A DNA stretch of 64,000 nucleotides, taken from NCBI GenBank assembly GCA_023053545.1, contig JAKZAN010000005.1:2356001-2420000 (forward strand), in the 5' to 3' direction. Position 1 is the stretch's first letter. Each line of letters begins with the position of its first letter. Below the pieces are notes generated by a model. The model had not been told where the DNA came from and did no database searches. It saw only the letters and a list, made by a program, of their open reading frames with translations. The position numbers and the translations under genes were made by a program. Below are positions 1-63,972 of this stretch, piece by piece. Source of the stretch: Lepidurus packardi. Taxonomy: Eukaryota > Arthropoda > Branchiopoda > Notostraca > Triopsidae.

Positions 1-10
1 TGGCGAAAGC

Positions 11-450
11 TTAAGGCTCCCGTATAGCTTAGCTTGTTACACAGACGCTTCCGCTAGGTGGCGCGCAGTGCTTTACATGGTTGTATAGGAACGCGCATGA
101 TTTCTGCGCATACAACGGCAACCAGGGTAACTTTTAGAACCATGGGTTCAATTTGCGTGAAACAGTTCTTTACAAGATATACAGTCAAATACTATCCCGG
201 CATAAATCTCCAAATTCAGGATTTTGCCTTTTTCTCGCGTAGTCGGAAAATAAATGTACATTTTTCAAATTGGCGAAGAACAAAAATTAAAAAAGTAAAT
301 ATATGCCTTGGCCTCCAAAATACTATTACCTACATTGCTGTCACTAAGTTTTCTTTAAAACAAGAAGCCTCGTTTAGTTTTCACCCAAGATTGCTGTTGT
401 TCTTCCCATCCTACTGGCCCAATGAAAGCTTAGCTATACGGGAACGTTAG
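11..450. mobile_element. MITE (subfamily A) with 20-bp terminal inverted repeats, in the last visible SelL intron
   Basis: The left end TTAAGGCTCCCGTATAGCTT is mirrored by the right end, whose reverse complement starts CTAACGTTCCCGTATAGCTA. The flanks are TTAA and TTAG, consistent with TTAA-type insertion after one change. The interior shares a block (GGTGGCGCGCAGTGCTTTAC and about 60 bp after it) with copies at 48490-48890 and 59625-59754. No transposase is encoded. Confidence 0.7.
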
Positions 451-468
451 GGAAACCAGCACACTTAC

Positions 469-630
469 CTTGTGCATGGAACGAGGCATTCCCAAGGTTT
501 GATACAACTGACGTTGCTTATCCAATAAAATAGGAAAGGGACAGGCGGTCTCTGTTTTCCATTGTCGAGCGCCTTTCTCATCGCCAAAGGAGACGATGCA
601 CACAGCGCAGCCCAAAGTAGAAATTTTGTT
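469..630 (-). CDS. SelL: SelL exon 5 (residues 186-239)
   Basis: Acceptor CATGTAG precedes 630, donor GTAAGT starts at 468; 54 codons, phase 0. It encodes CAVCIVSFGDEKGARQWKTE and the CPFPILLDKQRQLYQTLGMP core of the Prx-like fold. The downstream intron runs off the window and contains the MITE at 11-450. Confidence 0.8.
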
Positions 631-1450
631 CTACATGTGAGTCATAGAAAACCACTATTTAGAAGTGATACGCTGTGGCAGTTGTTACCAAAGAGTCCAC
701 TAGCTGAGCCACGTGAAGACGTCAAGGCAATCAAGCAAAATGGCGCAGCAATACGAACATAGTAAAGCTATTCGAGCCATATATGTGACTCAGGGAAGTC
801 GCAACGGATCCTTGGCTCTCTTTGAGCTCAAAAAGCGTCATTTCCGGAGGAACGCATGGGCCTTCAATGGGGACTTGAGATGTAACTTGCATTCCACGGT
901 CTATTTCTTGCAGAAAATCATCCCATTCATCCTAATCTCCGTTTTTTTTTTGTGGAGGGGTTTAATGGACTGATATGGCTATCTGTTAAACCTCACTTCT
1001 ATCTGTAGGAGCTGTTCAACTGCGTCGCACACGTCAGGATCAGCAAAGTGCTCTTGCCATAACAATTCCGCTTCTTTTCGTGTGCCAACACCCAGCCTTG
1101 TCGAAAATAAATGGGTTTAGGTTATTCAGAATTGAGGTGGCAAATATAGATGTGTTTGTTTCTTTTTACCCGGTAAAAAATGAAGCATAGGCGCCTAACG
1201 CTGCTCCCAATTGACCATAATCACGTTCCACAAAGGCAGTCCAGTCTTCTGTTATTTTAGAAAAGGAAAGTTTTATTTATGAACTGTTTGGTTGAGGGGG
1301 TTCTATGCTATTTTTACCTTGGCTTCTATTTCGGGCTGCCGTTAAAACTCTTTTAAGATCGGTAACAAGGTCAATCAGGGACACGCTAAGCGAAAGCTTA
1401 ATGCTCGCTCTGTTTGGCATAGAGTTTGTCGACCGTGCGTTGCACGCCAT
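469..1450 (-). CDS. SelL: Selenoprotein L (SelL)-type peroxiredoxin-like protein with UxxU redox motif; 5 exons, 3' end outside window
   Basis: Five minus-strand exons (1318-1450, 1170-1248, 997-1096, 689-931, 469-630) join in frame across GT-AG introns of 69, 73, 65 and 58 bp and give 239 residues. Residues 1-104 are helical and acidic. Residues 158-239 form a thioredoxin/AhpC-TSA-like fold: a VLLRHFA strand, then TGA-Leu-Pro-TGA-Arg at residues 171-175, the helix RLHVAQLVDSL, the strand CAVCIVSF, and a CPFPILLD/LYQTLGM segment typical of PRXL2/SelL proteins. The two in-frame UGA codons stand where relatives have CxxC. Known SelL proteins use UxxU to form a diselenide bond. Start chosen at 1450 because the context there is strong (A at -3, G at +4); another in-frame ATG at 1474 has a weaker context. 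The last visible exon ends in a GTAAGT donor in phase 0, so at least one more exon and the SECIS element should lie beyond position 1. A pseudogene is unlikely: every splice site and frame is intact apart from the two UGAs. Confidence 0.85.
689..931 (-). CDS. SelL: SelL exon 4 carrying the tandem UGA (UxxU) redox site
   Basis: An 81-codon exon in phase 0 at both ends. It reads DEWDDFLQEIDRGM, then a Pro-rich turn, MTLFELKESQG, the strand FTMFVLLRHFA, TGA (733-731), Leu, Pro, TGA (724-722), and RLHVAQLVDSL. No GT/AG pair lets an intron remove the two TGAs while keeping the flanking strand and helix in frame. The acceptor side (GGAGATTAG before 931) has a purine-rich, A-tract upstream and is the least typical splice site of the gene; the donor is GTAACA. 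Confidence 0.82.
997..1096 (-). CDS. SelL: SelL exon 3 (residues 71-104)
   Basis: Acceptor GACAAG precedes 1096 and donor GTGAGG follows 997. The acidic helical reading LGVGTRKEAELLWQEHFADP continues to DAVEQLLQIE. Reading through the donor meets an in-frame TAG within six codons, which supports the intron. Confidence 0.75.
1170..1248 (-). CDS. SelL: SelL exon 2 (residues 45-71)
   Basis: Acceptor TAACAG precedes 1248; donor GTAAAA starts at 1169. It encodes DWTAFVERDYGQLGAALGAY plus a short tail, matching the helical N-terminal half of SelL-like proteins. Entry phase 1 and exit phase 2 agree with both neighbours. Confidence 0.75.
1318..1450 (-). CDS. SelL: SelL exon 1 (start codon, residues 1-44)
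   Basis: Starts with ATG at 1450-1448 and ends at a GTAAAA donor (1317-1312) after one base of the next codon. It encodes a basic, hydrophobic amphipathic stretch (IDLVTDLKRVLTAARNRSQ) and no signal peptide. The leftover G joins AA of the next exon to give Glu. Confidence 0.75.
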
Positions 1451-4032
1451 ACTTGTGAACTCCCTATCGAACATAAAAGTTTGACAACCAAAGTCCACCT
1501 TTTCTACACTGATACCTTATTTTTCGCTTTCTGCTGTCTTCAGCCCGAATGTCCGAATCCAATCCGCGGGTTACTTGTGCTAGATCTGTCCACATAGATC
1601 TCCGTTTAGGCTCATTGACTCTTAATAGTTTGCAAAGTAAAAGTTTATAAACTTTTACTTTCATTTAGTCCGTACTCCACAAAAAACTTGCTCTTGTTTG
1701 TCGTTTTTAGGTAAACTAGCGTGTGTCTGTACTTCCTTTGATAGCGGGTTAAGCAAACCCAAATCGAATACAATAGAAAAATAGATTTAATTATTCCTCT
1801 GTTCTGAGCAGACACGTCAGCTCGTTTCGCTGCTCGTCATGAATTCTTAAATCCTTTTTGAATGAAGAATTTCCCTTAAAAAGTAAGGTATGGTTTCCCT
1901 GTAATACGTTAGTCGAAAAGGTTGTGACTTTTGCCTGCCATTATTATGCAATTATTATACAAATGCAATTTTTTGGTCGCACATTATAGTTTAGAAGAAA
2001 ACTGCAATATAGTAATGTAACCATGAAATAATGTAATTATAATTTTAACTTCGTATAGTACCATTTTTAAAGCGTAAACTTACAATGAAATAATAGAAAG
2101 ATAAAAAAAAATGACAATTTAAGTTGTGAAATGACAACTTTTTCTAAGAGTGTAAATGTTGGTAGTTTTGGAACCTTGCCTCATGATAGATAGGGAGACT
2201 CAAAAGCCCCGTTGTTTAAAACTTGAATGCGTTTGGAGAAACGCGCCAATGAAGACTTTCTTTTGTATGTGTACATATAGTGCTACCCTTTCAGGCGGTA
2301 ATACTTCTCTGTCTATTACTGTACACTTGCTCCGTCTCTCCACGGAAGCGCATCAGCGTACACATAGTTCTCCGCCGCTTGAGTCGTCGTGGTTGACGCC
2401 GCCGCCGTCGTCGTCCTCTCTTTTCCCAGTTCTTTTTTCGCCCCCATCGAGTTGTCACGGTAACGAGAATGTGAGTTTCTCTCGCTCACCGAGCCATTCT
2501 CACAGAGTTGTCTTGCAGCAAGAGCTGCTATCGACTTGGCCGGGAGTTTTTTCCTCCTCCCGTGGAAAATAAGCTGGTCTTACGGGGGAAAGTTACTTGG
2601 CTATCTACAATATCAGTTTCCAGGCAGAATTTCTGCCAAGAAGAACTTTTCTTTATCCAGAATGGAGTAATGGATTCAGTGTTCTAGCCAAAGAAATAAG
2701 TGGGATCTCAAAACTGGTGGGATATGTGCAATAGTGCAGGAAGATTCCGTTCGTTTCGCAAGAAACCGATTTAGTAAGTCTGCAGCAATTTGGCAGCCAT
2801 GTGTACTGTTAGTAGAGCCGAAACGGATTCTGGAGTCATTACAACACATTATTTCCGTTCTCTGTTCGAGTTTAGAGGAAAAATTAAGGTTGTCTGGATG
2901 GTAATTTTTAAAAATAACTAACTATACAATATTGAAAATTACATGGATAATCTTTGCACCGTAGATCAAAATTAAGTTTGAAAGAAATGCTTAAAAACAT
3001 GGAAGAAATTCAAGGAAAAGCTCTCGATAGGGCATCGGTAGCCTTGCAATGTATTGCTTATAGACATTGACTGCATCGCAGCAATAACGCCAGACTTGGG
3101 CCTTGTTATGTTTTTGATGATAATTTCGTGACGTTAGCGCTTTTTACTATCACTTGGCATGCACTTTAGCAGTCATAATAAATTTCAGCGAACATTCATG
3201 TTTTATTAGCTTGAAAGTTTTGTTTCTACTCGTCTTATGTGATGACATTCTAGCGGTATAAAACCTCGATATTCCTAGGTCTTTCACTTACTCTTCTTTA
3301 TATTTCTGTTATTCCCCTTTTCACGAAGTTGCGTAGCCAAAGAAATCAATATTGCCTTGGCGCAGCCACGAACCGCATCTCCCGTGTTCCTTACCGGAGT
3401 CTGCGCTCTCGGAATGGTACACAAATTAAGTGTAGGACTCGGCCTGCCCCAAGGTCATGGTCAGAGGTTAGGCCAGGACGCTAGACGCTTTAGATTGGAA
3501 CGTAGAAATGGAGGTAGGAGGGTAGGTTAGGGTAGGTGGGAAATCCTGGTTTCAAGCTTTTGGGTAAAAGGGAATTGGACTTTTAAAAATTAGTTTCTGC
3601 CCAGTCTAACGGAAAAGGAATTGAAATAAAAGGCCTGGTTTTTGGCGTGGCTGTTTGTATCATTGCGCTAGAATGCTTGATGCGCTGCTTGACGATGAAT
3701 AGTAGCAAACGAGTCTCCTTGACGTCTCACTGTTTACTCCGAATTGGAAATGATTGCTATGGAGACAGGCACCTGTTGGATGGCAGTAGACTTTGTCTTT
3801 TTTCTTTATTGCGATTTGCAAATGAAGACTTATTAAGTTGCAATAATGCTTCCTACTTGGCTCCTATTGATCCTTTTCGTCAGATAGGTCACTAATGGAA
3901 ATTTTTCGTTTTTGTTTCTTTCCACTGCGCACACTACCCGTTCCTTGGGATTTTTGTCTGGCTTCGCAGAGCACGATTGCTGTCTGAGTTACACTACGAC
4001 GGAGAAAGCAGTGTGTTGGTTCCGATTAGGAT
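1451..4032. other. Intergenic region between divergent SelL and RasGRP genes
   Basis: No supported coding exon. It holds a GC-richer, CpG-containing stretch at about 2330-2570 with GCCGCCGCCGTCGTCGTCC, which could be promoter or 5' UTR sequence for either gene; an AT-rich part at 1900-2150; and the possible TATA box at 3257. The open stretch at 2156-2572 is Ser/Pro-rich low complexity and is not convincing as protein. Confidence 0.5.
3257..3263 (+). promoter_or_regulatory. Possible TATA box for RasGRP
   Basis: TATAAAA in the context GCGGTATAAAACC, about 770 bp upstream of the first RasGRP ATG. Position and sequence are compatible with a core promoter, but no transcript start can be seen and an AT-rich region gives chance matches. 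Confidence 0.25.
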
Positions 4033-4099: not shown

Positions 4100-7000
4100 G
4101 TAAGCTGGCATCTGTCGTTCTGCAAGAATAAAACAACATCAACATAGTATTAGTAGATGAAAGCATTGGGATTTATTTCTGTTTGGGTATAGCCAGTTTT
4201 CTTTGATATTGTTTTTCTGGGCATTGTCCCTTTCATTTTGATTGGTTACAGATTATTAAAACTATTAGGTACCAAAGGCTTTCTCTGTACAACTTTAATT
4301 CTTTCAGACGTTTGTAAGAAGCGCGCAAGTTTGCAGTCATTTCGGTATTGCTAATTTGAGAAAACGTTTCAAAGCGGTTCTCGGTATACGTTTGACAACC
4401 TTTGCCCTTCTTTGGAAGGTTAAGGTGAATATGTGAGTGCTCGAATAATTTAGTGTGCCGAATGGGTCGCGTTTTGCTATTATGGGACAAAGTCAACCTG
4501 ATAAAGTGGAAACACAAAATAAAATAGGGCGTGTCTGTCGGAAAGTTGCCGTAATAGTGACAGTAATAATAAACAAATGCCCACGCTTTGACGTCAGGTG
4601 CTCTGACGTCACTGTCGGCTTCTTGCTCCTAATGGCACGCGCTGCAGTAATGCTTTTACACATTCCGTCGACTGTTCTACGGCTCGCGTTGCGCTGGGGA
4701 TTGTCGGAGCAGCTCGCGCGCGAAGCATCTCCTTATGCGGACGAAAACATCCAAAAGCTTTTTTCATTGTCGTGTTGACTGGGTCTCGCTGACGGTGTAG
4801 GCGTTTAGTGCCTTCTTTTTCTAAAAAAAGCAAGAAAAAAAAAACGACTAAGAAATAATCCTAGTTTCTTTGTGGTTTGGTTTATGCTTGTTTTTGTACC
4901 CCAGATGCAACGTCCTCCAGATATGTGATGGCCTCAAGCACGCTCCTCGTTTCCTCACCGACGTCATCGCATCAGTCTACCTGTAGCAGCACTGCAACTA
5001 CCATGTCGGCTAGTAATGTGACCCCCAGCCCTTCTTTGCCCGGAATTCTACTAGACGATGAGCGTCTTGGATCGGGGTCCAACTTATTGCCTGCCCTTAC
5101 AGGTTTACCCGTTCGGATACGTGCAGCCACCTTGCCCGTTCTATTGGAGCTGGCGGTAGCTTGCTTTAGTAAGTAGGAAATTTGATTTTGCGTGATTTTT
5201 GTTCCTGATTTCATGCGCAAACCTTTCCTTAGGTGAAGACGGAGAATTGCAGGAGAATGCCTCCAATTTTCCCCAGATTTTCTTCCTTATGCACCAGTGG
5301 TTTACCACGTCAGAATTGCTAACGGCCGAGTTCAAGCGCCTCTTAGCCAATGGACCATCTTATTACTCTACCTTGGCACCCATTTTCACTACTTTGAGCG
5401 CAAGTCCGTTACCCTCAAGAGCTGAAACGTGCTCGTCGTCATCGTCGTCCTCGGACACGCCTCCAAGATCATTAAGATCGTCGTCAGCCTTCGTTCGCAG
5501 TTCGGATCCTTTACCGCGGTCACGAACTAATATGGTTCTAATTCCGCGGCCGGCTCGTGTAGGATCTGAAGATGACGTCTGTCCCAGCTTTACGGCAGCG
5601 TTTCGACATTCCTTGTCGCACCCTCCGCCAGCTTTGTGCAGTAATTCAATGGATCAACGAGTAGCTGAAGAACTGGGTCCAGAACAGCCACTCGACGAAC
5701 CGACGGAATGCAGAAATTTTCGGAGAGCAATAGAGACGGCACAAGCCAGTGCCTGGAGCAATTTTCCCGTACGGCGACAGCAAAAGGTGGATCTTCAAGA
5801 GAACCCACACCTTAGAACACGCAGACGGCCCGCAGCAGAGAATCCTACTACGGTTACGAGCATTGACAAGGGTAGCAATGAGTCACCTGCTCGCGAGGAA
5901 GTGTGTATTGTGTGCAAACCTGATTGTAGTCATCGCACCGGCGGAGCACATGAGTGTGCATTGTACCGCTACCGCCGCCAAGTGTGTCACGCATTACGGT
6001 ATGGAAAAACTTGTTTCTTGATCATCAAAATGGGCCACTTTTTTCTTAACTGGGTGAAGGAACGTCTTGTAGGTTCTGGATCTTCCATTTCCCCGTCCAC
6101 TTTGATTTAGATCCTCGCCTGGCTGCCTTTATGCTAGATTTGAAGTCGCAGTTGACGGATGGGTGCCACCCGTACCTCGCCAACCTCATCGATCTCTCTT
6201 GTTTACCCTCATATGATTGGATACGCAACATTTCCGTCCGAGATCCTTCAGTAAAACATTGTCGTAAAGTCTCTTTGGTGTTTAACCATCTCGAGCCTTG
6301 CGAATTGGCGGAACATCTGACTTTCTTAGAACATCGCATCATGCGGCGCATAACGGTAGATTGTTGCTTTTTTACGTAATCTTATCAGTCTAATATCTAA
6401 GACTACGAAGTTATTTAGCAATTTAGTAGTTTGATAATTAAAGAATTCATTTAATTATTTAATTTCCTTTGTATTCATTAGTATTTTTATTAACATAGTG
6501 CCTTTTAAGTGTTTTTTGAGTTCAACCTGGGGTGTAAGATCCACCTTGTTTTTGCCATTCGTAGTTCCAAGATTACAAACAATACGCGGTGACTGGATCT
6601 TTGACGGATAACCCACGTTTGGAACGTTCGGTGGCCTTGTTCAACGGACTAACTCAATGGGTGCAGTGTATGGTGCTAAGTCGCAGTACGCCGCAGCAAC
6701 GGGCAGAAGTTATTGTGAAGCTGATTGACGTAGCCAAAGTAAGTTTATATCGTTGTTTCCTTTGTTTTCTTAAAATAAGAAATTATGACTATTGTTTACA
6801 TAGAAATTGAAAGAGTTACGAAATTTTAACTCTTTGATGGCAATGGTGGGTGGTTTAAGCCACAGTTCTTTAGCCAGATTAACGCGTACCGCTGCCTGTG
6901 TACCTGCCGATAGCCAACGTGCGTTGGCCGAACTCACCGAGTTCTTGACATCCTCGTCAAATTTTTCGAGCTATCGGAGAGCTTTACATGAATGTAAAGG

Positions 7001-9021
7001 GTTCAAGATTCCCATTTTGTAAGTATCCTCGCATGTCTAACTTTGAAAGACTTTTCTAGGTATAATTTAGCCAAAAGGTACATTCTATATTCTTCAATGT
7101 TTGTCTCTTTCTTGGTTGACCAGAGGCATTCATATGAAGGACTTGATTTCCTTACACGTTGCATTATCCGATGCAGTTGAAGGAGCGTGGGTTAACTTCC
7201 GCAAAATGGCCCAACTCTCCTTAATATTTCAAGAATTACAGGAATTGCAAAATGCCACGCCTCCATTGGGTGCCAACGTCGAATTAGTCAATACATTACG
7301 GGTAAGCTTTTTCATTTTGACTCGGAAAGTTTAAATCATCGAGTCGGATGTGGGGTATTGATAGGTCTCTTTGGACTTGGCTTACACTGAAGACGAAATT
7401 TATGAATTGTCCTTGGCGAGGGAACCAAGAAACTCCTTTTCGGTAATTGTCTGAATTCCTGTATTAGTTTCAGGGTTACTTAATGTTATTTAAAAAATAG
7501 CCCCAGTCTTCGCCGACTCGACCAACATTACTGCACGACTGGCCAAGTGGGCAAAGCTTGCCATCATCACCTTCGCCAGTAGCTAGTGCAGGATCGAGCA
7601 GCTTGTTTAGCAGCCCAGGTGCATCGCTGCCCTCGCCGCCGCCTACGGTATCAATTTTGTCCAACCATATTACTTCCATCGTGTTTTGCTAACACGTTTT
7701 TCATCTTCAGGGCCAAACCAAAGCTCACGATGCGGCAACACGCTCTGCCTCGGCACCGTTAGGGCGAGTAGCGCCATTGCCACCTTTACTAACTTCCTTC
7801 AACCAGGCTAGACAGAGTTCTACGAATATAGATGAGGCAGGCCCAGTGGGTTACTTGGAAACCCACGTTACTGCCATGCTAGATGCAGTATTTCATCCAA
7901 GACTTAAGCTTAAAGACATGTAAGTAAACTAACAAATCGTGTTCGAAGGTTCACAGTCCTAACATGTTTTAAATAAATTTTGAAAAAAACACACACAAAA
8001 AAACAGGTCGGTGGGTTCCAAAGAGCTAAGGAACTTTACTTTTCCCCATCAGGATATTCTTGCTAAGCACGACTTTCAAGAAGCTGTTTTTCTGAAACCG
8101 ACCTCGTGCGGACACTGTGCTGGACTGGTAATACCCTCAAGTAGTTGTGTAAACTTTGCAGTGATCCAAAGACCAAATCTGTTTAGCTCTGGGGTCCGTT
8201 ACGACAAGGATACAAGTGCAAGGACTGCGCCTTGAGTGTCCACAAATTATGCAAAAGTATGCTGAATCACGACTGTCGACCCCGGCCGCCATCGACGAGC
8301 AGTTTAGTCGGTAAGTTGACTTATGGAAGGCTCCTGCCAGACTTCTAATCTCAGCCTTCGTGTAAAGACTTACTGCAAGGTGGATCAGTACGTTCCAGAT
8401 TTCGTAGGCGTAAGAAGCTAACCCAGTCTGAAGCCATGGATTCTTCGCAAGACCTGCAAGGTCAGGACTGTTGCTGTCAGGATTTCGTATGTCCGACTCC
8501 CTGCAAGTCTTACGACAAAGCTGAATCGGATTTAGAAGCATTAAGCCCTCTTGCCTGCCGTAAAGATGTAAAAGGCAACGGAATTGCAACATTGCCCATG
8601 AAACTCGACTTACCAGGTACTTACCAATTATCCAAGCTGCGATGTATTAAATACTCTTTTATTATTTACTAATTTTTTTACCACTATAGTCAGCGAAGAG
8701 ATGGAACTTCCACTTCGGCGATCTTCGAGCTCTGTTGTTTCCTCGCATGGACAAGGTCACGCACACCTTAGAAGCCCAAAGCGCCGGAGCATGTTTTGCA
8801 CAAGTCCGTTGCCAATTAGGCCCAGAAAAGGTTCTTTATCAACTACGGGCAACTGTCGAAGTTTTCCTGGTTCAGGAGCTACTCGAAACGATTTGGATAA
8901 CGAACCAAGTTTGCGAGTTTCTGTCTCGGCGTCGCCGCGACGTAAGGTTAGCGACACTTTTGCCGTATTGTCCACTAGAAGAGCTTGTCTTTGTCAAGGC
9001 CACCGCAAAGACAAGAGCTAA
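4033..9021 (+). CDS. RASGRP: RasGRP-type Ras guanine nucleotide exchange factor (14 exons, complete)
   Basis: Fourteen exons totalling 3195 coding bases give 1064 residues with every phase matching. Order: REM (about 85-150), a Ser/Pro-rich expanded linker (about 150-345), the second REM helix and spacer (about 350-415), the CDC25 catalytic domain (about 425-675), a Pro/Ser linker, a shortened degenerate EF region (about 770-812), a C1 domain (815-864) and a basic Ser-rich tail. Diagnostic strings are FNHLEPCELAEHLTFLEHR, FNSLMAMVGGLSHSSLARL, FKIPILGIHMKDLISLH and YTEDEIYELSLAREPRN, close to vertebrate RasGRP1/3. In this family the protein loads GTP onto Ras/Rap at membranes when diacylglycerol binds C1. 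The start may be ATG 4033 or the in-frame ATG at 4057, which has the better context (A at -3, G at +4). Upstream non-coding exons are possible. Confidence is high for family and exon chain, lower for the exact N- and C-termini. Confidence 0.9.
4589..4611. promoter_or_regulatory. Two perfect CRE (TGACGTCA) sites in RasGRP intron 1
   Basis: TGACGTCA occurs at 4589-4596 and 4604-4611, with start positions 15 bp apart, in a GC-richer part of the 805-bp first intron, the longest in the gene. The octamer is the consensus for CREB/ATF bZIP dimers. Function is inferred from the motif and spacing only. Confidence 0.4.
4905..5168 (+). CDS. RASGRP: RasGRP exon 2 (N-terminal tail, start of REM)
   Basis: Acceptor ACCCCAG and donor GTAAGT. 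A Ser/Thr-rich segment leads into LPVLLELAVACFS, the first helix of a REM domain (compare the LxxLIxxCxxxFD pattern of RasGRPs). Phase 1 at both ends. Confidence 0.75.
5233..5998 (+). CDS. RASGRP: RasGRP exon 3 (REM core plus long Ser/Arg-rich linker)
   Basis: Begins SEDGELQENASNFPQIFFLM then HQWFTTSELLTAEFKRLLAN, the REM helices. About 190 residues of Ser/Pro/Arg-rich sequence follow where vertebrate RasGRPs have a short loop. It ends in RRQVCHAL, the start of the helix that reads ICHFIRYW in vertebrates. Donor GTATGG at 5999, phase 2. Confidence 0.85.
6073..6355 (+). CDS. RASGRP: RasGRP exon 4 (REM second part, start of CDC25)
   Basis: After the 74-bp intron the reading is RFWIFHFPVHFDLDPRLAAF, then LIDLSCLPSYDWIRNISVRD and the CDC25 box KVSLVFNHLEPCELAEHLTF. 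Donor GTAGAT, phase 0. Confidence 0.88.
6565..6738 (+). CDS. RASGRP: RasGRP exon 5 (CDC25)
   Basis: Starts FQDYKQYAVTGSLTDNPRLE and continues with ALFNGLTQWVQCMVLSRSTP, the SCR region of Ras-GEFs. Acceptor TTCGTAG, donor GTAAGT, phase 0 at both ends. Confidence 0.9.
6804..7018 (+). CDS. RASGRP: RasGRP exon 6 (CDC25 catalytic core)
   Basis: Reads KLKELRNFNSLMAMVGGLSH, containing the NFNSLMAxxxGL motif that defines CDC25-type exchange domains, then FSSYRRALHECKGFKIPI. Donor GTAAGT, phase 2. Confidence 0.92.
7124..7301 (+). CDS. RASGRP: RasGRP exon 7 (CDC25)
   Basis: Completes PILGIHMKDLISLHVALSDA, matching the P-x-LGxxLxDL motif of Ras-GEFs, then FRKMAQLSLIFQELQELQN. Acceptor TGACCAG, donor GTAAGC, phase 0 exit. 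Confidence 0.9.
7365..7442 (+). CDS. RASGRP: RasGRP exon 8 (end of CDC25)
   Basis: A 26-codon exon, VSLDLAYTEDEIYELSLARE PRNSFS, nearly identical to the RasGRP1 C-terminal helix of the exchange domain. Introns of 63 and 58 bp flank it. Confidence 0.88.
7501..7647 (+). CDS. RASGRP: RasGRP exon 9 (Pro/Ser linker)
   Basis: Reads PQSSPTRPTLLHDWPSGQSL and a Ser/Pro run. The LHDWPSG part aligns with the V-DWASG linker of vertebrate RasGRPs. The donor GTATCA at 7648 was chosen because exon 10 enters in phase 0; the intron sequence otherwise runs to a TAA at 7690. Confidence 0.75.
7711..7919 (+). CDS. RASGRP: RasGRP exon 10 (linker, first EF helix)
   Basis: Low-complexity linker followed by YLETHVTAMLDAVFHPRLKL, which aligns with the helix that enters EF-hand 1 in RasGRP1/2. 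The calcium loop that should follow lacks its acidic ligands. Donor GTAAGT, phase 2. Confidence 0.8.
8007..8127 (+). CDS. RASGRP: RasGRP exon 11 (EF remnant, first half of C1)
   Basis: Reads SVGSKELRNFTFPHQDILAK then HDFQEAVFLKPTSCGHCAGL, the H and first two Cys zinc ligands of C1. There is no second EF-hand before C1. Donor GTAATA. Confidence 0.88.
8187..8310 (+). CDS. RASGRP: RasGRP exon 12 (second half of C1)
   Basis: After a 59-bp intron ending TGTTTAG the reading is LWGPLRQGYKCKDCALSVHK then LCKSMLNHDC. With exon 11 this completes H-X12-C-X2-C-X13-C-X2-C-X4-H-X2-C-X7-C exactly. The Pro, Trp-Gly and Gln residues associated with diacylglycerol-responsive C1 domains are present. Confidence 0.9.
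8380..8616 (+). CDS. RASGRP: RasGRP exon 13 (basic C-terminal region)
   Basis: Encodes a very basic stretch RSRFRRRKKLTQ and a Cys-rich segment (QDCCCQDFVCPTPC). The acceptor at 8378-8379 is chosen by phase and by a TTCTAAT branch-point-like sequence 30 bp upstream; using the nearer AG at 8353-8354 would break the frame and leave a 44-bp intron. Donor GTACTT. Confidence 0.7.
8690..9021 (+). CDS. RASGRP: RasGRP exon 14 (C-terminus, stop TAA at 9019)
   Basis: Acceptor CACTATAG. Ser/Arg-rich tail (MELPLRRSSSSVVSSHGQG onward) ending RKDKS-stop. Phase matching with exon 13 selects this frame over the neighbouring open frame that would run to 9028. No recognised domain; a later alternative terminal exon cannot be excluded. 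Confidence 0.7.
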
Positions 9022-62200: not shown

Positions 62201-63972
62201 TTGGTGGAACCGCTGGTAAAGATTAGCTTTAGGTCCTAGCTTGTTATTGCGTTAGCCAATTTTTTGCCCTTTTCTAAGGCAATATATTGATTAGCTTCAC
62301 CGCCCCTTGGCCAGATGTTCCATGTTTGTTAAAGCTTTGAGCTACACGAGAAGAGATAAGTGCTTTTGCAAGTCAGCAAAGTTTCCGAATCCAGTTAAAA
62401 TGAAGTTAAAACCGAGTTTTCGTTGGTTTAAAAACTTGAAAGGGTCAATCATGAAGCGCTAAAACCGCGCGCTGGAATGGTTAAGATTGAGTAGGAAAGA
62501 TTGTAGAGAACTACGTCTAAAGCCAGAGCAATATACCAGTGGGGATTAACGCGAGGCTGCTGCAGCGAGGTTTTAGGGGGTTGGAGCGCTACTGTCGCGC
62601 TACTGGAATTGGGTACCCAGATGTGACATTAAACCCAAGAGGCCAAAAGGGGATAGCGTTGTTGTTGTCACGTGTGGGCCGAAACTGTTTATGTATGTAT
62701 CTATCTAATGGTCTCCCAGCATGAATGCAAATGGGTGAAAGGTATAAGCATAGGGACACTGGGTCCCACTCCTGTTGTTTTCCAGTGCCTTGTATCTTCT
62801 GCACTGGAGCTAGAGAATATAACACAGACACGTTAATTCGGTAAAGCTGTAAGTGAACTGATCTGTTTCTAGCTCATGTGTTGCTATTGCCATTACAGGT
62901 GTTCCCCTGGCACCCTCAGAGTGCTCATTGCAGAGCCCAGCGGACGGAATCCTTGAAGTGGTCTGCTCGACTGTCACCAACAATAGCACATATGCCCATC
63001 ACAATCGCCAGGCTTCGTGGCGATCGTCGGCATCGCCTTCGTCGGTGGTGTATCTCCTTGAGTTATACGATGCGGTGACAGGTCATATACTGCGTAATGT
63101 GACGAGTCGCTTTCCTCGATTTAACATTTCGGATATCGACCCCAAACGCCGAGTATCAGCTTCTGTCACGGCTGTTAATCGACAGGGCCGCTCGGAAGCT
63201 GTCACACTGGAAGGCGCCGTTGAACGCGCCGTGGGCAGTAGGACTGGTAAGTTCGTTCTTGTATTTCCTTTTCTTTTCGGGCATAGATTTGCTGTCTTTT
63301 GTGTGTCATCTTCGTCTGTTGTAAGCCATTGGACGCACACCAAAACAAAAACAAAACCCAATACAAGAAAGACCCACGCAAGGGTAATACAGTGGGCCTA
63401 CAGTACGTCTCTACAGAGAAGCAATGGGGGGAATTTGATACGCAGTGTGGTCTGGTCTGTGTGAAAGGCGATTTGGAACCGTACGGGGCTTTAGAGCGAC
63501 GGTGTGGCGGCTGGCGGGTCAATCTGGCATCGCCACTTCGCGCAGTACACTGCATGCACCCCGTGGGTTTTGCTAGAGGAAGTCTATTTAGGTTGTCACA
63601 TGCAGGAGTGCTGCAACAGTGCTGTCGAGCTGAAGCCACTGATTTCCCAAAAGCAATTGCTGCTATGCATTTCTTAAGCCTCGTTCCCCCGTGGAAAGGA
63701 GGGGGGTAACTTTTGTTGGCATTTTCTGGTAAACCCGAGAAAAAGTCTTAACTAGGACATTTCTTTCCCATTTTGCTTAGTTTTTAAATTGCTTCTTTTA
63801 TTATGATTTTCTTTTTTCCGGGAAGGGTTGCACAAGAGAGACATTTCTGCCTTGTGTCGCCCACGGGTACGGGTACGGGCACAGCTGTGTTGCAGCTCTT
63901 GGAAGTAGAAATAGAAGTCACCCTCCAGTTTTTATTAACTTTGCTTCTAGCTTTAATTCCCCTTGTGGGACG
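29171..63972 (+). CDS. side: Sidestep-family immunoglobulin-superfamily receptor (12 exons seen, 3' end outside window)
   Basis: Twelve exons join in frame to 710 residues. Order: signal peptide (1 to about 25), Ig1 (about 39-150), Ig2 (151-255), Ig3 (256-354), Ig4 (355-451), Ig5 (452-549), FNIII (550-665), juxtamembrane sequence and the start of a transmembrane helix (about 693-710). Each Ig domain has its two Cys and core Trp. Side-specific strings include LWYYEPSKKPIYSVDLRGR, ADQGIYRCRVDFRLSPT, PGTPVIYDENIRRES and VKYAPVC. Sidestep proteins are neuronal and target-cell surface ligands for Beat receptors in axon guidance and synaptic matching. Many NxS/T sites suggest glycosylation. The intracellular tail lies beyond 64000. 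Which Side paralogue (side, side-II to side-VIII) this matches cannot be decided here. Confidence 0.88.
30082..30472 (-). mobile_element. Diverged MITE-like element (subfamily B)
   Basis: TTAA at 30082 is followed by TTTTAGCTATGCATAGGCGC and CATAGGCGGTTAGCAGG. The right end reads GCATGCCAACCGCC and CTATGCCTAGCTAAACAC, roughly the inverse. The GGCGGTTAGCA/TGCTAACCGCC core is shared with copies at 40453, 44188, 45893 and 52635. Confidence 0.4.
30767..31670. repeat. Five-copy 180-bp tandem repeat with alternating monomer types
   Basis: Five monomers share CTAAGCAGGCACCG, CACGATGACGTCAT, GCAATTCTGC and ACATTCAAACTATCCGGG. Monomers 1 and 3 carry one variant set (GACTTGCAATTC, TTTTGGCAAACAC). Monomers 2 and 4 carry another (GACCTGCAATTC, TTTGGGCAAGCAC). 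Monomer 5 is mixed. The perfect octamer TGACGTCA begins at 30798, 30977, 31158, 31337 and 31518. Confidence 0.9.
32131..32161 (+). promoter_or_regulatory. TATA-like box with adjacent 18-bp perfect palindrome in Side intron 1
   Basis: CTATATAAAA at 32131-32140 is followed by TCCATGTCCGGACATGGA at 32144-32161. It could mark an alternative promoter or a dimeric factor site. An ATG at 32157 opens only a seven-codon frame. Confidence 0.3.
32788..32901 (+). repeat. Inverted repeat partner, left copy
   Basis: About 115 bp (GTTGTACTTCCTGTGAGCAA to GAACGATATTCTATTCTGTT) that recurs as its reverse complement at 34407-34522. Confidence 0.75.
33720..33900. repeat. GTCGAC-rich palindromic block related to the 14.7-15.5 kb repeat
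   Basis: Two copies of TTAAGTCGACTTAAAAGTC flank CTCAAGACTTTT, followed by GCGTAAGTCGAGGAAGTTTG, which is also present at 15880. The palindromes could extrude as cruciforms. Confidence 0.6.
34381..34409. repeat. Perfect 12-bp hairpin inside the hAT-like element
   Basis: GCGCTGCCTTGC, loop TACTG, GCAAGGCAGCGC. It sits directly beside the inverted-repeat segment. Confidence 0.7.
34407..34522 (-). repeat. Inverted repeat partner, right copy
   Basis: Reverse complement of 32788-32901 with about ten percent divergence; it lies inside the hAT-like element. Confidence 0.75.
38612..38744 (+). CDS. side: Side-family exon 2 (Ig1 N-terminal half)
   Basis: Acceptor ACGACAG; reads VPAEDLTAAAGRSSHMECDL with the first Ig Cys, then AYLVLWYYEPSKKPIY with the core Trp. 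Donor GTGATT, phase 2. Confidence 0.88.
39085..39287 (+). CDS. side: Side-family exon 3 (Ig1 C-terminal half)
   Basis: Acceptor GACACAG after a T-rich tract. Reads SVDLRGRSPMQAKHFVEERF and, after an NVT glycosylation site, ADQGIYRCRVDFRLSPTKHV, the second Cys strand of the V-type Ig domain. Donor GTAAGT, phase 1. Confidence 0.92.
40453..40743 (+). mobile_element. MITE subfamily B copy
   Basis: Left end TTAAAGACACCCGTATAAAT, then CACAGATGGCACTGCTGTTT. Right end ATGCTAACCGCCCC, CAAGTATACGGGAGCTTTA. The ends are inverted repeats of each other. Confidence 0.65.
42085..42230. repeat. AT-rich tandem duplication
   Basis: TGTGTTCTATTATTGATAAT followed by TAATAAAACTAATAATTAAT occurs twice with a spacing of about 65 bp in strongly AT-rich sequence. 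Confidence 0.6.
42772..43098. repeat. Large foldback palindrome, arms about 160 bp, single-base centre
   Basis: The left arm (from ATTAATATTATCAATATTAT) and right arm are near-perfect reverse complements meeting at GCTCTAGA-T-TCTAGAGC, centre 42936. Differences are a few substitutions near 42890 and a small length difference near 42908-42925. No open frame is shared. Confidence 0.9.
43098..43130. repeat. Perfect 16-bp hairpin next to the large palindrome
   Basis: CGAGGCACGATCTAGA, a single G, then TCTAGATCGTGCCTCG. The centre has the same TCTAGA-N-TCTAGA arrangement as the larger palindrome it adjoins. Confidence 0.85.
44188..44574 (-). mobile_element. MITE subfamily B copy with a tandemly duplicated end
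   Basis: TTAA (44188-44191) precedes AAGCTCCCGTATACCTTAGC. The other end, GCTAAGGTTTACGGGAGTG, is followed by TTAA (44450-44453). About 120 bp of that end is then repeated, ending GTTAAGGTTTACGGGAGCC-TTAA (44571-44574). TTAA at all three ends supports TTAA target choice. Confidence 0.75.
45752..46570. repeat. Direct repeats flanking a MITE
   Basis: A segment at 45752-45890 (TTCAGATTCCCTGAATTC to AAAGTTAGGAATCCATAA) recurs at 46447-46570 (TTCAGATTCCCTGAAATTC to AAAGTTAGGAATCCATAA). The MITE copy at 45893-46440 lies exactly between them. Confidence 0.65.
45893..46440 (+). mobile_element. MITE subfamily B copy
   Basis: Contains CTCTGGTATACCTGAGCTTA, CAGATGGCGCTGATATTTGT and, near the right end, CATGCTAACCGCCTATCCCG. 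The terminal repeat on the right is eroded. Confidence 0.6.
48490..48890 (+). mobile_element. MITE subfamily A copy
   Basis: GGATAGCTTAGCTTGGTACA and GGGTGGCGCGCACTGCTTTG match the element at 11-450. The far end, AAGCTAAGCTATACAC, is the inverted terminal sequence. The ends have diverged and no target duplication remains. Confidence 0.6.
49844..49954 (+). CDS. side: Side-family exon 4 (Ig2 N-terminal half)
   Basis: Reads EAPGTPVIYDENIRRESTVL then GPYNEGSDVLLACEVSGG with the first Cys of Ig2. The GPYxEGxDVxLxC pattern is strongly conserved in Side proteins. Donor GTAAGT, phase 1. Confidence 0.9.
49955..53353. other. Side-family intron 4 (3.4 kb)
   Basis: It interrupts Ig2. Besides the MITE at 52635-53058 no gene or clear repeat is seen; the 51562-51768 minus-strand frame is not convincing. 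Confidence 0.5.
52635..53058 (+). mobile_element. MITE subfamily B copy
   Basis: Left end CTCTCGTATACCTTAGTTTA and CAGATGGCACTGATGTTTGT. Right end GTGCTAACCGCCTATACCGA and GCTAAGGCATACAAGAGCCT. It is the best-preserved interior of the B group. Confidence 0.7.
53354..53557 (+). CDS. side: Side-family exon 5 (Ig2 C-terminal half)
   Basis: Acceptor TCTGTAG. Reads GPNVRITWWRGNQRLHSRTE, then LRNLGRKDHGAVLTCRAEAG with the second Cys, and an NVS site. Donor GTAAGT, phase 1. Confidence 0.9.
53558..54917. other. Side-family intron 5 (1.4 kb)
   Basis: Lies between the Ig2 and Ig3 exons. Simple T tracts and a purine-rich stretch; no gene, repeat family or clear regulatory site recognised. Confidence 0.4.
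54918..55069 (+). CDS. side: Side-family exon 6 (Ig3 N-terminal half)
   Basis: Acceptor TGCGTAG. Reads LRPAAVEIPSHSTNLESGKL, HEVMCKSAGAIPPAIITWWA with Cys and Trp-Trp. Donor GTGAGT, phase 0. Confidence 0.9.
55667..55800 (+). repeat. Direct repeat copy 1
   Basis: Begins AACAAATGGGTTCCGTCATT and ends CTTATTACTTTCTGGA; it recurs at 56254-56388 with scattered substitutions. Confidence 0.8.
56222..56249. repeat. 12-bp hairpin with GAAA tetraloop next to direct repeat copy 2
   Basis: GAATTAAGACAT-GAAA-ATGTCTTAATTC, perfect stem, ending five bases before the second direct repeat copy. Confidence 0.6.
56254..56388 (+). repeat. Direct repeat copy 2
   Basis: Second copy of the 134-bp segment at 55667-55800, about 587 bp downstream in the same intron. 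Confidence 0.8.
57592..57736 (+). CDS. side: Side-family exon 7 (Ig3 C-terminal half)
   Basis: A strong polypyrimidine tract and TTTTACAG precede it. Reads VSEDGNTTTSILSLIPSPED then DGKILTCRAQTPQLPGG. Donor GTAAGT, phase 1. Confidence 0.92.
57737..58740. other. Side-family intron 7 (1.0 kb)
   Basis: Lies between the Ig3 and Ig4 exons. It contains a G-rich run at about 58341-58361; no gene is seen. Confidence 0.4.
58741..58871 (+). CDS. side: Side-family exon 8 (Ig4 N-terminal half)
   Basis: Acceptor TTTGTAG. Reads YMPRVSLGLGPGFHAEEIRQ then GEHIYLECHVRANPYIHRLL and WYKN. Donor GTAAGT, phase 0. Confidence 0.92.
58872..60173. other. Side-family intron 8 (1.3 kb)
   Basis: Interrupts Ig4. AT-rich first half, then the partial subfamily A MITE at 59625-59754; nothing else recognised. 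Confidence 0.45.
59625..59754 (-). mobile_element. Partial MITE subfamily A copy
   Basis: Read on the minus strand from TTAA (59754-59751): CGTTCCCGTATTGGTTAGCT, CAAGCTACCGTAAGGTGGCG, GAACGCGCACTGCTTCTGC, matching the first 120 bp of the copies at 11 and 48490. The other end was not found. Confidence 0.6.
60174..60333 (+). CDS. side: Side-family exon 9 (Ig4 C-terminal half)
   Basis: Acceptor TTCACAG. Reads GLVLTHNTSVGIVMANQSLV then HTAGNYSCVATNRQGETASQ with the I-set YxCxAxN motif and three NxS/T sites. Donor GTGCGT, phase 1. Confidence 0.9.
60334..61182. other. Side-family intron 9 (0.85 kb)
   Basis: Lies between the Ig4 and Ig5 exons. Unremarkable sequence with A/T runs; nothing recognised. 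Confidence 0.4.
61183..61476 (+). CDS. side: Side-family exon 10 (whole Ig5)
   Basis: Acceptor CATGCAG. Reads YAPVCRTLEPQIVVVSRDEP, LLRCQVEAEPASVAFRWTL, and GLLQCWASNSVGNQKEPCIF. The Ig5 domain is encoded by one uninterrupted exon, unlike Ig1-4. Donor GTAACA, phase 1 at both ends. Confidence 0.92.
61477..62898. other. Side-family intron 10 (1.4 kb)
   Basis: Lies between Ig5 and FNIII. It contains the palindrome CTTGTACCGGTACAAG at 61562-61577; nothing coding is recognised. Confidence 0.4.
62899..63246 (+). CDS. side: Side-family exon 11 (fibronectin type III domain)
   Basis: Acceptor ATTACAG. Reads GVPLAPSECSLQSPADGILE, then VVYLLELYDAVTGHILRNVT and SASVTAVNRQGRSEAVTLEG, the FNIII pattern closing the Side ectodomain. 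Several NxS/T sites. Donor GTAAGT, phase 1. Confidence 0.92.
63247..63836. other. Side-family intron 11 (0.6 kb)
   Basis: Lies between the FNIII and membrane-segment exons. Overlapping open frames on both strands near 63299-63709 resemble no known family and are treated as intronic. Confidence 0.4.
63837..63972 (+). CDS. side: Side-family exon 12 (juxtamembrane and start of membrane helix)
   Basis: In the required phase the exon ends VTLQFLLTLLLALIPLVG before a GTGAGC donor at 63973, a convincing start of a transmembrane segment. The acceptor is uncertain: CACAAG before 63837 follows a long T tract; GGCACAG before 63885 is in the same frame and would shorten the exon by 16 codons. The helix probably continues in the next exon outside the window. 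Confidence 0.55.

Follow-up and report, generated by a model that had tools for sequence, protein, structure and literature searches.

A predicted UxxU selenoprotein L gene with a SECIS-like element in an arthropod genome

A six-exon gene with two in-frame UGA codons

The window, that is, the whole 64-kb stretch of DNA that was analyzed, corresponds to C4:2356001-2420000 on the 13.5-Mb contig C4 of a genome of 108.6 Mb in 344 contigs. A predicted selenoprotein L (SelL) gene begins near its left edge and runs off it on the minus strand; because exon 6 sits beyond window position 1, the end of the gene is invisible in the window alone. Extension of the contig below position 1, which the first-pass annotation had proposed as a check, yielded a TAA-ending exon and a SECIS-like element. 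The features are as follows (window positions unless C4 is named).

1318..1474, minus strand: exon 1, from the first ATG; in frame, donor GTAAAA
1170..1248, minus strand: exon 2, in frame; acceptor AACAG, donor GTAAAA
997..1096, minus strand: exon 3; acceptor ACAAG, donor GTGAGG
689..931, minus strand: exon 4, holding the UxxU motif (LRHFA-U-LP-U-RLHVAQL); both U positions are TGA codons in frame
469..630, minus strand: exon 5, thioredoxin-like domain 3' of the UGAs
1..468, minus strand: the portion of intron 5 that lies in the window
C4:2355743-2355979: exon 6, in frame and closed by TAA; it lies 21 to 257 bases to the left of window position 0
C4:2355654-2355699: SECIS-like core; ATGAT, stem, AA in the apical loop, GGAA

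Exons 1 to 5 have GT/AG borders and keep the reading frame at every junction, and the sixth exon joins in frame as well, bearing out the earlier claim that the flanking exons are in frame. Exon 4 comprises 81 codons, and its minus-strand translation, with TGA read as U, is DEWDDFLQEIDRGMQ...MFVLLRHFAULPURLHVAQLVDSL. The only in-frame stops are the TGAs at exon codons 67 and 70, in agreement with the first-pass reading of RHFA-U-LP-U-R. Including the stop, the CDS measures 978 nt and, from the first ATG, encodes a product of 325 amino acids with U179 and U182. Translation from the ATG at codon 9, which has A at −3 and G at +4, would give 317 amino acids with U171 and U174; this codon has the better start context and may be the likelier start. 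The first-pass numbering of the two Sec residues (171 and 174) holds if codon 9 is the start, and its product length of 239 residues follows if translation is also cut where exon 5 ends; exon 6 brings the protein from that start to 317 amino acids.

The predicted protein belongs to the SelL-related redox proteins

With C in place of U, the spliced 325-amino-acid protein matched NCBIfam model NF040769 (SelL_rel_redox, SelL-related redox protein) at 128.3 bits over residues 163 to 314, above the curated cut-off of 120. Exon 4 alone covered model positions 21 to 48 at 31.7 bits. An exon-by-exon search of the genome with the same model listed seven matches, none of which reached the cut-off, single SelL exons staying below it, and the model also matched 12 of the 14 control genomes below the cut-off. 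Two Pfam families were found in the protein, PF13911 at residues 189 to 301 (65.1 bits, cut-off 27) and PF00578 at residues 145 to 245 (40.8 bits, cut-off 26). From their spans, the domain extends through and 3' of both UGAs; by sequence comparison it is a Prx-like/thioredoxin-like domain. Among PDB entries, prostamide/prostaglandin F synthase 9us9 scores best (E = 1e-4), and its CVVC aligns with ULPU. UxxU thus occupies the redox position at which relatives carry CxxC, as had been claimed from the motif. The comparisons support the gene in the window as another member of the known SelL family, an assignment that we regard as well supported at the sequence level.

A SECIS-like element follows the stop codon

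The SECIS-like core begins 43 nt 3' of the stop, at a distance of 475 nt from the second UGA. In the pattern scan it shows AUGA and GA, an apical loop that opens with AA, and 11 of 12 stem positions paired. A single candidate SECIS would serve both UGAs; it has the core pattern and one strict-scan hit, and its score with the Rfam model RF00031 (SECIS_1) at the 3' flank (L003:1642-1707, minus strand) is 19.3 bits, short of the gathering score of 35. Genome-wide, RF00031 gave four matches at E values up to 1, all beside Sec-type genes and none over the gathering score; the SelL site is absent from these matches. Folded alone, the 46-nt core adopts a form near that of a SECIS (−12.1 kcal/mol). 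The pairing drawn by hand comes to −6.4 kcal/mol, and a 100-nt stretch at the site, folded without constraints, takes a form other than that of a SECIS. Counting 400 nt from the start of the element, we saw neither AATAAA nor ATTAAA.

The strict form of the pattern scan had no hit on either strand of the 64-kb window, and no Rfam family matched the whole window at gathering scores. In the window together with loci L001 to L068 it gave six distinct hits, at SelL, at a partial duplicate of the SelL 3' end, beside SPS2, at a GPx and beside two exons that we take, from their motifs, to be SELENOF-like and SelW-like; no Sec codon was seen for the SELENOF-like gene. Run on 2 Mb of random sequence from a first-order Markov model, the strict scan made 9 hits, none of which had the score of the SelL site; 10 Mb from a second-order model produced 35, five of them at that score or more. 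Three sites found by a looser scan or by Rfam were missed by the strict one (the SelU-like gene, the GPx on C241 and the SelW-like exon on C122). The loose scan found nothing SECIS-like in the tested stretches after the C5 GPx and TrxR, and its hit after a Cys-bearing GPx on C309 is likely a false positive.

The partial duplicate of the SelL 3' end (L002:1496-1883, minus strand, which is C4:2347496-2347883) is 88% identical and carries a SECIS-like core of the form GTGA...AA...GGAA. The TAA of a TRPA1-like gene precedes it by 472 nt; the last 420 codons of that gene, read in that frame, contain no TGA. The duplicate is probably a relic.

Selenocysteine machinery in the genome

Judged from sequence matches, the host Sec machinery is for the most part present, with tRNA-Sec, SepSecS and SPS2 as well as candidates for PSTK and eEFSec. 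A tRNA-Sec gene, which we take to be animal-like, lies at C4:8069987 on the same contig as SelL (77.8 bits, cut-off 47). The tRNA-Sec model gave 13 hits genome-wide, three of them over the cut-off; of the eight with loci examined by ARAGORN, two were called tRNA-Sec and six tRNA-Ser, one tRNA-Ser being over the model cut-off. SepSecS is found at C5:7322538-7324185 (262.1 bits including neighbors, cut-off 224.85) and SPS2 at C1:5090309-5091205 (159.2 bits including neighbors, cut-off 125). The SPS2 gene has U in GUGCKVP and a SECIS-like site, and aligned with Selenide, water dikinase 1. A PSTK-like exon at C3:2340032 scored 101.6 bits, below the cut-off of 382.

The presence of eEFSec, another check named in the first-pass annotation, is indicated by eEFSec-like exons at C2:4908694-4910105; their pieces score 26.6 to 59.5 bits, below the model cut-off, and their best PDB match is the selenocysteine-specific elongation factor 5izk (E = 4e-32). 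Two further candidates were rejected as eEFSec, a SelB-model hit at C3:9752883 that is a mitochondrial-type EF-Tu by sequence and C5:4233045, the sequence of which looks EF-Tu-like.

Other candidate selenoproteins and neighboring sequences

The large contigs carry two GPx genes with TGA at the expected Sec place, one reading IIANVASKUGKT, and a TrxR-like gene with GCUG before the stop in its putative last exon, pieces of which score below the TIGR01438 cut-off. A SelU/PRXL2-like gene with RRFGUVFCR, of the same superfamily as SelL, was found in two pieces (C2:7191558-7191665 and C2:7204534-7204791) that we infer to be one gene; the loose scan placed a SECIS-like site ~250 nt after the match of its last exon. 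An exon of this gene matched 9us9 (E = 6e-14), and an approximate two-exon peptide scored 71.7 bits with NF040769, below 120.

Five small contigs (C325, C229, C241, C73 and C122) bear another tRNA-Sec, which differs from the first, and another SepSecS. They also have a GPx that combines an in-frame TGA with a SECIS hit, and SelW-like exons in which TGA and SECIS hits likewise occur. Such contigs with Sec genes of their own suggest another eukaryote in the assembly. Elsewhere in the genome, three pieces of the hemocyanin family are over the cut-off, and exons of an Ig-superfamily gene occupy positions 38918-63461 (plus strand) of the window, one of them matching Sidestep IV (9nq2, E = 4e-11). 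To our knowledge, the Sidestep and hemocyanin families are restricted to arthropods, and both finds point to an arthropod as the most likely host.

About 5 kb from SelL, at window positions 6565-8232 (plus strand), lies a RasGEF exon (39.2 bits) with a weak C1-domain match below the cut-off. The last SelL intron contains a dispersed repeat that recurs, at 72 to 80% identity, at L002 823-691, L002 8635-8512 and window 48624-48494. Window ORFs 62862-63464 and 5196-6110 matched no Pfam family. A search of the genome contigs (genome_contigs) for prokaryotic relatives with a 158-amino-acid query gave one locus, L036, which is a chance frame with internal stops; a search of plasmids gave none.

Proposed mechanism and alternatives

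The mechanism that we propose starts from what the sequence shows: the exon structure, the family membership, a SECIS-like element and the greater part of the Sec machinery. The element in the 3' UTR would bring in eEFSec with Sec-tRNA-Sec, and both UGAs, three codons apart, would be decoded as selenocysteine. The product would fold as a Prx-like/thioredoxin-like domain with UxxU in place of the CxxC of its relatives, and the two selenols would pair as a diselenide taking part in a redox cycle. For this SelL, the insertion of Sec, the diselenide, the redox activity and a substrate for it are what we infer. Because domain homology continues past both UGAs and a SECIS-like element lies shortly after the stop, the two codons go beyond chance. 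The SelL identity put forward from the motif is supported by the NF040769 score of the spliced product and by the element in its 3' flank. We put the probability that this is an intact six-exon SelL gene, with both UGAs read as Sec via the 3' SECIS to give a UxxU Prx/Trx-like redox protein, at roughly 95%.

The most serious alternative, in our view an unlikely one, is that efficient decoding is limited to one of the two UGAs, the full-length UxxU form being minor or another residue being inserted. A single SECIS-like element serving two UGAs three codons apart would fit such an outcome, but published SelL has the same layout, with two Sec and a single SECIS (PMC3316567).

There is very little room for the UGAs being true stops, either of a truncated protein of ~178 amino acids or of a decaying SelL pseudogene. 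The partial copy of the SelL 3' end nearby speaks for this, and duplication therefore occurs at this locus; against it, exons 5 and 6 keep the frame, the splice borders and the domain match 3' of the UGAs, both stops are TGA and fall at the CxxC positions, and the SECIS-like element stands 3' of the TAA stop. No more credible is a SelU/PRXL2-type selenoprotein instead of SelL, to which the shared PF13911 domain and the UxxC SelU-like gene of this genome might point, since the motif here is UxxU rather than UxxC and the NF040769 cut-off is passed here (128.3) and missed by the approximate SelU-like peptide (71.7).

Two in-frame UGAs decoded as Sec from one SECIS would make this SelL gene a potential test system for such decoding. 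SelL is one of the few proteins with two Sec residues in one active site, and annotation programs for which UGA is only ever a stop would presumably cut its gene short or break it up. If the proposed reading is true, a working UxxU SelL in an arthropod would imply a diselenide-reducing partner there. Another complete model of a SelL gene, probably in an arthropod and accompanied by a SECIS-like element and Sec machinery, would also help to date SelL losses. We regard it as an even bet that this arthropod, with its small genome, maintains a functional UxxU SelL beside a Sec system and several further selenoproteins, possibly as the first arthropod SelL.

Comparison with known systems

The SelL family was reportedly described by Shchedrina et al. 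2007, and an aquatic host is among its characteristic features. For SelU/PRXL2 the redox motif is CxxC or UxxC. The SelU/PRXL2 proteins, including prostamide/PGF synthase 9us9, resemble the present protein in the PF13911 domain and in a redox motif at the same place; they differ in that the motif is CVVC in 9us9 and UxxC in the SelU-like gene of this genome, as against UxxU here. The thiol-disulfide oxidoreductase ResA (PDB 2h1b, 1st9) likewise has a redox CxxC at the same place in the 2h1b alignment, with cysteine rather than selenocysteine and an E value of only 0.65.

SelL is listed in sponge, placozoan, cnidarian, annelid and amphioxus (PMC3473315) and in tunicate (PMC2874816), and occurs in fish with one SECIS for both Sec (PMC3316567). 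A further paper attributes a diselenide bond to SelL and places it in fish, invertebrates and marine bacteria (PMC2397514). A partial literature search returned no report of SelL in arthropods, and earlier reports may exist; the term "SelL" does not appear in the main text, as distinct from selenoprotein Table S26, of a centipede paper (PMC4244043), nor in that of a second arthropod paper (PMC2500217). Like known SelL, the gene described here is predicted to combine two Sec as UxxU within a Prx/Trx-like domain with one SECIS on the 3' side and an animal host that has a Sec system; unlike the hosts listed above, that host is probably an arthropod.
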